Origin: a virus
Virus record (IMG/VR): IMGVR_UViG_3300025168_000334
Location: 1-32,963 of that record
Strand: one strand, 5' to 3'
Length of the DNA: 32,963 nucleotides
The translations under genes were made by a program, and so were the position numbers. This document shows, one piece after another, positions 4,168 to 32,591 of this stretch; the stretch's first letter is position 1, and every line of letters begins with the position of its first letter. The notes under the pieces were generated by a model. It had not been told where the DNA came from. It did not search any database and saw only the letters and a list, made by a program, of their open reading frames with translations.

Positions 4168-4875
4168 TTAATCTAAACTAAAGTCATTAGATGTATTACT
4201 TGGAACTGATATATCATCATCTCCAAAAGATTCTACATTTTTAACTATTAGTTTTATTAAATGTTGAGGATTTTCTTTATCATATTTCACAATTAGATTA
4301 GAGTCTGTAATAGTTGTATGAAAGTTTCCTCTATCTGCTTTTACTAAAAATAAATTATAGTTAATATAACCATTTTTATTTTCCCATTCTCTTCCACCAA
4401 TACAAAAATCTAAGTATACTTTTTCCTCTTTTTGTAATACTTTATTAAACGCTTCAGTAAATTCTTCAATAGTTTCATGTTTACCATCTGAATCACTAAA
4501 CCATTTCATAAATGTTTGAGAATCATTTGCAGCATCTAAAGTTTTAGATAAAGTTTTAAGATATATTAATATAGATCTATCTCTTTCTACTTTTATACCA
4601 CTTTTTGTTTCTCCATCAGCAAAAGCATATCTACTAACTTTTACTTTTCCAACTTGACCATCATATCTTTTACTATTTGGATCTTCAGAATCAATCATAA
4701 AACCTTCAAAATCTTTTAAAGGTTCTGTTTCTACATGTAATATTAAATGATATGCATCATCAATAAATTTAAATTGTTCTAGTTCTAGACTATTAATTTT
4801 TAATGTATGATTTCCTGGTGCAATTGTTTTTTTGACCGATGCACCTCCTTGTAGGTCTTTTGTACTTAACGCCAT
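4168..4875 (-). CDS. Probable single-stranded DNA-binding protein
   Basis: A 235-residue protein with beta-rich segments (HTLKINSLEL, HLILHVETE, GKVKVSRYAF), a middle helical region, and a strongly acidic C-terminal tail ending DDDISVPSNTSNDFSLD. An acidic tail ending in a hydrophobic/acidic tip is typical of phage and bacterial SSBs, which use it to dock replication partners. It sits between the RecA-like ATPase and the primase and has its own terminator, suggesting high expression. There is no diagnostic short motif, so the call rests on context and the tail. Confidence 0.6.
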   Translation of the reverse strand: MALSTKDLQGGASVKKTIAPGNHTLKINSLELEQFKFIDDAYHLILHVETEPLKDFEGFMIDSEDPNSKRYDGQVGKVKVSRYAFADGETKSGIKVERDRSILIYLKTLSKTLDAANDSQTFMKWFSDSDGKHETIEEFTEAFNKVLQKEEKVYLDFCIGGREWENKNGYINYNLFLVKADRGNFHTTITDSNLIVKYDKENPQHLIKLIVKNVESFGDDDISVPSNTSNDFSLD

Positions 4876-15431: not shown

Positions 15432-15839
15432 TTATTTTAAATAGTTTAACTTTCTTGATTCTTTTGGGTTAGCATGTATCCAGTTATGACAACTTCTACA
15501 TACTGGTAGCCAAGTAGATTGTATTAAATAATACACGTCTCTTTCACTACCTCCTCTTGTATGATGTACATCTGTTGCATGTGTTGCACATCCTTTTACT
15601 TTTACTTTACATAAAGCATTCTCAGTAAGATATTTCTTTCTTAACTTAGAATACTCAGCATCTTTCTTTTGTCTTCTGGCTGAACTATGGCGGATGGTTG
15701 ATGTAGTTGGTTTTTTAAAACCGTCCTTTGCCTGTTGGCGACTCCAGCATTGTTTACACCAACGCATACCACCATAATTTTTCCAGATATAAGTGAGTTT
15801 TTCACATGAATCACACACTTTCTTTTTTTGTTTTATCAT
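15432..15839 (-). CDS. HNH endonuclease with N-terminal zinc ribbon
   Basis: A 135-residue basic protein. CDSCEKL near residue 9 and WCKQCWSRQ near residue 28 form a zinc ribbon. CKVKVKGC, then DVHHTRGG (HH of the HNH core), WLPVCRSCHNWIHANP supply the Asn/His and second metal pair of an HNH nuclease. Such proteins are recombination (NinG/Rap-like) or homing-type endonucleases in phages. It overlaps the next upstream gene by 4 nt. Confidence 0.85.
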   Translation of the reverse strand: MIKQKKKVCDSCEKLTYIWKNYGGMRWCKQCWSRQQAKDGFKKPTTSTIRHSSARRQKKDAEYSKLRKKYLTENALCKVKVKGCATHATDVHHTRGGSERDVYYLIQSTWLPVCRSCHNWIHANPKESRKLNYLK

Positions 15840-16351
15840 TTAGATTGATACTTTAACCTTGGTAACTTATTAGGATTTGTTGTAATGTCCATAAAGTCTT
15901 GACGTAATACTCCTTCTTGTATAAAAGCAGTAATAATATCATCTTTAGTTATACCAAGATTAGCAAATGTAAGAGTATTTTTAAATTTGTCATCTGTTTC
16001 AGTATTGCTAATTAACCAATCAGTTAAAGGTGCATTCGGAAATAAAGTTTCAAAGATAAAATTAGAGTACCTATTTGTACTTTCCTGTTTGAGTTTGTTA
16101 ATAACTTTTTGTCCTCTCAGATAAACTCTACTTATTCTTTGTTTCTTTTGTTTACAAGTTCTATTATACTCTTCTTTACTTAAAGATTTTAATCCATGTA
16201 AAACTCTTTTATAAAGATAATTTTGATAAGCAGTATACTTGTCCTGCTCATATTTAACAAAGCTATTTGGATTAGCTTCTAACTTTTGAAAGTCTGACAG
16301 TTTACCTACAAACTGATACTTTCCATTACGATTTGAATTTTGTTTTGTCAT
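15836..16351 (-). CDS. Unknown phage protein (171 aa)
   Basis: Begins MTKQNSNRNGKYQFVGKLSD and is basic, with a long helical middle (KRVLHGLKSLSKEEYNRT, then KQKKQRISRVYLRG) and a C-terminal TNPNKLPRLKY. The strongly basic middle suggests nucleic-acid binding. It starts after the terminator of the previous gene, behind the shared leader motif at 16362-16379, and is the first gene of the HNH/M23/helicase/ClpS unit. Confidence 0.65.
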   Translation of the reverse strand: MTKQNSNRNGKYQFVGKLSDFQKLEANPNSFVKYEQDKYTAYQNYLYKRVLHGLKSLSKEEYNRTCKQKKQRISRVYLRGQKVINKLKQESTNRYSNFIFETLFPNAPLTDWLISNTETDDKFKNTLTFANLGITKDDIITAFIQEGVLRQDFMDITTNPNKLPRLKYQSK

Positions 16352-16380
16352 TATATATACATTTGGGGATTAATAAAATA

Positions 16381-16409
16381 AAAGGAGGAGCTAACTTAAC
16401 CCCTCCTTT
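16381..16409 (-). terminator. Intrinsic terminator after the pseudoknot-led gene
   Basis: AAAGGAGG and CCTCCTTT form the base of a stem around GGTTAAGTTAGCT on the minus strand, followed by TATTTTATT. It ends the one-gene unit at 16419-16880. Confidence 0.8.
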
Positions 16410-16418
16410 ACAATAAAT

Positions 16419-16880
16419 TTAAAGATTAAAATCTTCTTCAGTACTAGCTACAGTATCTTCTTGTGTACTGTATGCAGATCTTAATTCATCTACATTATCA
16501 TGTCTGATTAATGTATCTTCTGCATTGCTAGCTTCAGTGTATCTAGTCTTACGGTAAATTGGGTTACCATCAATAGTACATGGAATACCTGTTGCTCCTG
16601 CTACTTTTAAATCTCTTTCAGGATTTCTAAAGTTAAATGGTGCAGTAGCTTCAAGAACTATAATTTTACCTGGCATTTCTTGCCCTGGTTTAAAATTAAA
16701 GCCTTTTAAATCTTCCATTGATCCTTGTATTAATGCACTTATTTCTTTTTTACGTAAGAAACCATTGTCATCTATTAATACTTTTTCTTGTACTACTCTT
16801 ACATAACCCCATTCTGGGTTTGCTGATTGACCGATAATGTTTCCTGCATCATCAGCACTTACTCTAACTGGTGAGTTCAT
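16419..16880 (-). CDS. Unknown, probably abundant protein under a pseudoknot leader
   Basis: A 153-residue protein beginning MNSPVRVSADDAGNIIGQSA. The body is strand-rich (WGYVRVVQEKVLI, KEISALIQGS, GKIIVLEATAPFNF), consistent with an OB-like or single-strand-binding fold, and the C-terminus is acidic (STQEDTVASTEEDFNL), as in SSB proteins. It is a one-gene unit with its own strong terminator and a structured 5' leader. An ssDNA/RNA-binding protein regulating its own mRNA is an attractive inference but unproven; no family motif is recognised. Confidence 0.65.
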   Translation of the reverse strand: MNSPVRVSADDAGNIIGQSANPEWGYVRVVQEKVLIDDNGFLRKKEISALIQGSMEDLKGFNFKPGQEMPGKIIVLEATAPFNFRNPERDLKVAGATGIPCTIDGNPIYRKTRYTEASNAEDTLIRHDNVDELRSAYSTQEDTVASTEEDFNL

Positions 16881-16908
16881 AATTAAATATTTAAAATGTT
16901 AATAATTG

Positions 16909-16951
16909 GTGAGCCGAACTACTATATTCTTGACTGCTCACATCAAGAATA
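16909..16951 (-). ncRNA. H-type pseudoknot in the 5' leader of the 16419-16880 gene
   Basis: On the minus-strand RNA a 9-bp stem UAUUCUUGA/UCAAGAAUA (16951-16943 with 16933-16925) encloses GUGAGC (16941-16936). This pairs perfectly with GCUCAC downstream (16914-16909). Loops are 1, 2 and 10 nt, the proportions expected of a compact H-type pseudoknot. It ends 28 nt before the ATG. A regulatory RNA element is likely; ligand or protein partner is unknown. Confidence 0.65.
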
Positions 16952-16980
16952 AGACAATAGTAAAAACTATTTATACAATA

Positions 16981-17244
16981 TTATTTTAGAAGGTCCTCTA
17001 TATCATCTAGATTATTGAGATCTATATCTCTAAGATCATCATCATCAATATTTTTAATAATGTCATCATCATCTGATGATATTTTTGGAAGTGATTTTCT
17101 GCTTATAGAAGAGCCTTGAAAGGGATTGTGAATATGATCACCTGCATTCATAGCCATAAGATATTGGATGTCTTGATCAGTGAGGTTTAAAAACTCCTCA
17201 ATACTCAAGTAAACAACCTTGCCATTTGGTAACTGATACTGCAT
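16981..17244 (-). CDS. Small acidic-tailed phage protein (87 aa)
   Basis: Begins MQYQLPNGKVVYLSIEEFLN and continues LTDQDIQYLMAMNAGDHI, a compact N-terminal domain that I recall from Bacteroidota phage hypothetical proteins. The C-terminal half is a run of acidic residues (SSDDDDIIKNIDDDDLRDID). It could bind a basic protein or polymerase. It begins after a hairpin region with its own AT-rich promoter-like leader (ATAATATATTTACG). Confidence 0.65.
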   Translation of the reverse strand: MQYQLPNGKVVYLSIEEFLNLTDQDIQYLMAMNAGDHIHNPFQGSSISRKSLPKISSDDDDIIKNIDDDDLRDIDLNNLDDIEDLLK

Positions 17245-31949: not shown

Positions 31950-32591
31950 ATGGCATATATAGAACATAATTTTTTTCCAATGAAAGTATTCTTAAGAAAT
32001 GAATACTTATATCAAGATAAAAAAGGTCATGGTGAATTCAGTGAAGGCGTAATTATATCTGTTAGGTGTATGCCTGGACAGGTAGCATTGTTTCAAGTAC
32101 TACTTGATAATGGTGTATTAAGAGACAAGCTTCCATCACATGCATTATTAACTGAACCTAAGACTCCTACTCCTGATTTAGCTTTTGACTATTTACAAAT
32201 TTGGAATTGTTTTTCATATAACTTTACTTTGGTTCAGTTATCTTATTTATATGATACACCAGTATCTGTTTATATGAAAGATAAAAAGTGGTATGATGGT
32301 ACATACTATGCTACAATTAACTGGGGTAGTAATGATTCAAATTGTGATTTAACATTATCTGAAGATCCGATGGAACATAAAAGTCATCATGTTATATTAT
32401 TAGATAATGGACAAATAGCATTACAACCTAATAATAGAATTAAATGGACTGAACCTAGTTTTGTTACAAAACCTTTTCCTACCAAACCTGATTACTTAGT
32501 ATGTAAAGATTATTATAATGCGGAAGGTTATGAAAAATGGCATACTGAAGATTCAGATAGGATGTTCTATGATAATACGGATGTAGAATGA
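31950..32591 (+). CDS. Unknown phage protein, beta-rich (213 aa)
   Basis: Begins MAYIEHNFFPMKVFLRNEYL. Strand-rich with several SH3-like segments (FSEGVIISVRCMPGQVALF, DTPVSVYMKDKKWYDGTYYA) and a Tyr-rich C-terminus (KDYYNAEGYEKW). No cofactor motif seen. It ends by overlapping the membrane protein gene. Family not recognised. Confidence 0.65.
   Translation: MAYIEHNFFPMKVFLRNEYLYQDKKGHGEFSEGVIISVRCMPGQVALFQVLLDNGVLRDKLPSHALLTEPKTPTPDLAFDYLQIWNCFSYNFTLVQLSYLYDTPVSVYMKDKKWYDGTYYATINWGSNDSNCDLTLSEDPMEHKSHHVILLDNGQIALQPNNRIKWTEPSFVTKPFPTKPDYLVCKDYYNAEGYEKWHTEDSDRMFYDNTDVE

Follow-up and report, generated by a model that had tools for sequence, protein, structure and literature searches.

Introduction

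In T4 and its close relatives, leader pseudoknots through which a phage protein regulates its own synthesis have been studied in detail. The operator of T4 gene 32 combines a pseudoknot with a less structured, A/U-rich track of more than 40 nt, which carries UUAAA repeats and covers the ribosome-binding site (PMC535899), and gp32 nucleates on the leader pseudoknot before spreading cooperatively (PMC3014915). Here we describe a leader carried by phages that are distant relatives of the crAss-like group and may have come to a similar arrangement independently. The window, i.e. the whole stretch of 32,963 nt that was analysed (IMG/VR record IMGVR_UViG_3300025168_000334), and all other sequences considered are metagenomic. 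An earlier note had described in this window a compact H-type pseudoknot in the 5' leader of a minus-strand gene, and had called a parallel with T4 gene 32 tempting.

Results

The geometry proposed in the earlier note, a 9-bp stem with GUGAGC pairing to GCUCAC and loops of 1, 2 and 10 nt, was recovered exactly and at the same coordinates, as was the distance of 28 nt from the pseudoknot to the AUG at 16880. The locus comprises the following features.

16981-17244, minus strand: upstream small acidic ORF of 87 aa, a neighbour conserved in the loci examined
16956-16971, minus strand: P0 hairpin of 6 bp, AAUAGU-UUUU-ACUAUU, from the fold; abuts the pseudoknot element
16922-16953, minus strand: outer S1 pairs, CU (16953-16952) with AG (16923-16922), U16924 bulged; from the family alignment
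16909-16951, minus strand: H-type pseudoknot with S1 of 9 bp, S2 of 6 bp and loops of 1, 2 and 10 nt; from the covariance model and covariation
16951-16943 with 16933-16925, minus strand: S1, UAUUCUUGA with UCAAGAAUA, nine perfect pairs
16941-16936 with 16914-16909, minus strand: S2, GUGAGC with GCUCAC, six perfect pairs
Pseudoknot loops, minus strand: L1, U (16942); L2, AG; L3, UAGUAGUUCG (10 nt)
16881-16908, minus strand: unstructured A/U-rich spacer from the pseudoknot to the AUG, 90% A+U and 0 kcal/mol in the window
16419-16880, minus strand: gene proposed to be regulated, encoding a 153-aa protein with the tail EEDFNL and a predicted SSB/PriB-like OB-fold
16381-16409, minus strand: intrinsic terminator 3' of the gene, also found in 61 of 63 distinct sequences

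A scan of both strands of the window for pseudoknots with an S1 of at least 9 bp, an S2 of at least 6 bp and the same loop geometry returned this one only, and the same scan found no comparable pseudoknot in 20 dinucleotide shuffles of the window. The covariance model R1 scores the window at 50.5 bits (E 2.3e-10), a value that is partly by construction, the window sequence being among those used to build the model. When only nested pairs are allowed, the fold of the window prefers a rival 3' hairpin, UAGUAGUU/AAUUAUUA, over S2. This alternative helix pairs 16917-16924 with 16900-16907 on the minus strand and would compete with the pseudoknot; it was seen only in the window, no hairpin of this type being evident in the other leaders when inspected by eye, and it may reflect chance or a switch.

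A two-sequence protein alignment, used to search IMG/VR, brought in about 80 relatives of the gene that follows the leader. Their leaders are of two sorts, and the pseudoknot fold is kept in one clade, in 37 of 39 distinct proteins. Two near-relatives of this clade have neither the knot nor a terminator before the gene. In a MAFFT alignment of 23 copies, from which the covariance model was made, 90% of the pairs are standard and double changes fill 45 cells, compared with 15 in shuffles. Likewise, in a wider set of 51 copies (46 distinct) 92% of the pair cells are standard, and double-sided changes affect 11 pairs and 83 cells of the 46 distinct copies against 25.1 cells in shuffles, cell counts that are inflated by the relatedness of the sequences and, for S1, biased in favour, the alignment having been fitted to S1, with S2 absent from the model. 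Sliding the partners by 1-3 columns in these 46 copies lowers pairing to 24-41%. Three of the loci (L056, L068 and L075), together with most of the pattern-derived ones, lie outside the model-building set. A divergent subfamily (L007, L014, L026, L038 and L039) is mostly missed by the model, and its fold is intact with different letters, CUUGG/CCAAG being replaced by CAUGG/CCAUG and GAGUA/UACUC by GUGUA/UACAC. Both pairs of the outer CU/AG clamp, C-G and U-A, are present in 46 of 46 distinct copies, with a bulge of U or G; the unpaired UA that follows the AG of the clamp is also conserved, as is the sequence of the knot, which has nearly invariant nucleotides. Covariation in homologous leaders had been suggested in the earlier note as a check, and both stems are indeed retained there with many compensatory changes; that the RNA structure is a conserved pseudoknot is essentially certain.

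One S2 pair, which is U-A, and C-G in six distinct copies, was submitted to a blind test over the whole of IMG/VR. The U..A pattern, slightly narrower than the other three, gave 60 matches, 49 of them located before this gene family and 11 with no family gene downstream, and the C..G pattern gave 16 before the family among the 120 matches listed. The mismatched patterns gave none there, either for C..A (0 among the 120 matches listed) or for U..G (0/117). Strong matches to the covariance model occur once per record and always before this gene (20 phage records). A match in the leader of another gene (L136) was initially promising and was rejected, having no S1 stem and no score with the model. 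The comparison with Rfam put forward in the earlier note yielded no match for the element, searches of Rfam 15 at the gathering threshold and at E <= 10 returning chance matches only. Among the named phages of INPHARED neither the gene nor its acidic neighbour has a relative, and genome contigs contain one relative of the gene, in whose leader no pseudoknot was seen. Weak matches to Stenotrophomonas (E 0.2) were attributed to chance. No published version of the motif was found in open-access full text.

The sister clade (leaders L042, L044, L050-L055, L057-L067, L069-L074, L076 and L078-L081) lacks the knot. Instead, 23 of its 24 members carry an intrinsic terminator some tens of nucleotides upstream of the AUG, in the position held by the pseudoknot in the other clade. 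The earlier note had regarded the gene as a one-gene unit, which holds at its 3' end, where an intrinsic terminator follows the gene, and is in doubt at the other, given that the pseudoknot clade has no terminator ahead of the gene; consequently the gene may share a transcript with the preceding small acidic ORF. The gene order is conserved in the relatives (15432-17244 of the window, minus strand) and consists of the small acidic ORF, this gene, an uncharacterised protein of about 170 aa and an HNH protein.

Upstream of the pseudoknot, a P0 hairpin of 5-11 bp with unrelated arm sequences is present in nearly all of 31 non-redundant leaders and nearly always stops 0-3 nt before the pseudoknot element (mean helix z 1.56 in the 31 leaders); in the window alone this helix is not significant. 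A role of P0 as a terminator was excluded, there being no U-run after the hairpin. Downstream, the spacers of the relatives measure 27-50 nt, with 88-89% A+U and about 0 kcal/mol, and are strongly enriched in AUUU tandem repeats, AUUUAUUUA occurring 33 times against 0.6 in shuffles. This repeat is present in 21 of 36 pseudoknot leaders, in 0/23 terminator-clade leaders and before 3 of 267 other ORFs of the same loci; the spacer of the window contains no perfect copy of it.

Searches with 44 members in Pfam, PHROGs, NCBIfam and PDB assigned the protein to no sequence family above chance. Two AlphaFold models have high confidence (pLDDT 88 and 90), and for the second, bacterial SSB or PriB make up nearly all of the top 50 PDB chains retrieved by Foldseek, with E-values of 0.03-0.5 for the top matches (best E 0.029, probability 0.99). 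SSBs also lead the matches of the first model, and likewise those among viral predictions. None of these fold matches is significant (E at least 0.029; TM at most about 0.4), and taken as weak fold evidence they suggest a protein that is probably SSB-like with an OB-fold. An acidic-hydrophobic tip is common to the C-termini of the pseudoknot-clade proteins (EDFNL, DDFSI, EDLSI). A [DE]F tip is found in 31 of 37 of them, the remaining six having EDLSI or EDMSI, versus 0/23 in the terminator clade, a difference that tracks the tree and thus counts once.

For the replicative helicase and the uracil-DNA glycosylase encoded in the window, the closest named relatives are in crAss-like phages, at about 33-35% identity, and for the glycosylase these also include Flavobacterium phages, which makes a host among the Bacteroidota likely. 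A conserved protein of 235 aa (4168-4875, minus strand) is encoded beside a Sak4-like gene and was found in most of the pseudoknot-clade phages that were searched; its acidic-aromatic C-terminal tip, SDF[SND]LD, is near-invariant and similar to that of the pseudoknot gene. It is likely to be a second protein of the single-strand-binding type, and the tip that both proteins have in common suggests a common partner. It may be the main SSB, a possibility that weighs against the operator proposed below. On the plus strand, a 213-aa protein (31950-32591) resembles a cyanophage and Pelagibacter phage family labelled ferredoxin or PurM (phrog_3704, E 1e-63), conflicting names which look like transferred misannotations.

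Discussion

The parallel with T4 gene 32 is strengthened by three features: SSB/PriB-like proteins are the top fold matches of the modelled protein, it shares an acidic-hydrophobic C-terminal tip with the other pseudoknot-clade proteins, and an unstructured A/U-rich track, often with AUUU repeats, leads to the AUG as in the two-part T4 operator (PMC535899, PMC3014915). On this analogy, our preferred hypothesis is that the element is a cis-acting translational operator for autogenous repression of the gene-32 type, of an origin separate from that of T4, a proposal for and against which we find the balance about even. The mRNA would present, in order, a short hairpin, the H-type pseudoknot, 27-50 nt of unstructured A/U-rich RNA, often with AUUU repeats, and the AUG. 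Once in excess over its single-stranded DNA target, the protein would bind the pseudoknot as a nucleation site and spread cooperatively over the single-stranded track, and the coated track would then block the entry of ribosomes and limit the protein's own production. Both the binding to leader RNA and the repression are inferred from the T4 example. The absence of the pseudoknot from the sister-clade homologues indicates that the protein can do without the element, an objection that is weakened, although not removed, by the T4-type phage RB49, which is also devoid of a leader pseudoknot (PMC3014915).

The same leader could instead act as a translation enhancer, in which, for hosts that have no Shine-Dalgarno sites, the pseudoknot and the AUUU track bring in ribosomal protein S1 together with the 30S subunit, for a high output of an abundant protein and with no feedback. 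No Shine-Dalgarno-like GGAGG or GAGG is present in any spacer tested, A/U repeats are enriched ahead of this gene and seldom precede other genes, and ribosomal protein S1 has affinity for pseudoknots and for A/U-rich RNA. A general device of this kind should also precede other strongly expressed genes, yet the strong model matches number one per phage, and we regard this explanation as unlikely. Somewhat more doubtful is an element of mRNA stability or processing, in which P0 and the pseudoknot form the protected 5' end left by a cleavage between the acidic ORF and the gene, slowing decay. The position of P0 immediately upstream of the pseudoknot would suit it, as would a dicistronic transcript that is cleaved, which the lack of an upstream terminator in the pseudoknot clade allows, and the strong terminator hairpin at the same position in the sister clade. 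However, a plain hairpin would be sufficient for this purpose, and the proposal gives no reason for the repeat track or for the conservation of the knot sequence and of the unpaired UA that follows the AG clamp.

A small-molecule riboswitch seems quite improbable, even though preQ1-I and SAM-II riboswitches are, like this element, compact H-type pseudoknots in 5' leaders and its nucleotides are nearly invariant. In contrast to those, it matches no Rfam family above chance level, even with the cutoff relaxed to E 10, has no evident switching platform coupled to the start codon, and precedes a single gene family that shows no hint of a metabolic role, where several genes of one pathway would be looked for. 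A type III toxin-antitoxin locus, with the pseudoknot as RNA antitoxin and the gene as ribonuclease toxin, was rejected as extremely improbable: a pseudoknot RNA does adjoin the gene of a small beta-rich protein as in ToxI, but it is single-copy with no tandem repeat array, no terminator separates it from the gene in the pseudoknot clade, there is no PADLOC match and no match to a toxin family (ToxN, CptN, TenpN), and the best fold matches are SSBs and not ToxN.

Returning to the operator, we tentatively consider possible, at somewhat short of an even chance, a fuller reading in which hairpin, pseudoknot and AUUU track form a new RNA family, an independently evolved operator of the gene-32 type, by which a previously unrecognised SSB-like protein of crAss-related phages would meter free protein against single-stranded DNA, the sister clade having a transcription terminator in its place. 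If true, it would be a second, unrelated case, in environmental crAss-related phages, and would imply that this solution arose more than once; the dozens of natural variants would provide material on how an OB-fold-like protein selects one RNA, and a protein family without annotation would gain its first functional hypothesis. By comparison with Rfam 15 and the full text of open-access papers, the RNA element is a candidate new RNA family, with conservation sufficient for inclusion in RNA libraries.

Compared with known OB-fold proteins of the SSB/PriB type, the encoded protein is alike in nearly all of its 50 best PDB fold matches (second model) and in its acidic-hydrophobic C-terminal tip, and unlike in having no sequence match in Pfam, PHROGs, NCBIfam or PDB and fold E-values that are non-significant. 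Compared with gene 32 of T4 and RB69, no sequence relation is established and the protein is not detectably homologous; the present leader has in addition the P0 hairpin and a CU/AG clamp with a bulge, AUUU stands in place of the UUAAA repeats, with no Shine-Dalgarno sequence, and autoregulation, demonstrated for T4, is here proposed by analogy. What the two have in common is a leader H-type pseudoknot and, from there to the AUG, an unstructured, A/U-rich track of repeats, a downstream gene for an SSB-like protein (predicted, in our case) with an acidic tail, and the absence of the element from some relatives, RB49 there and the terminator clade here.
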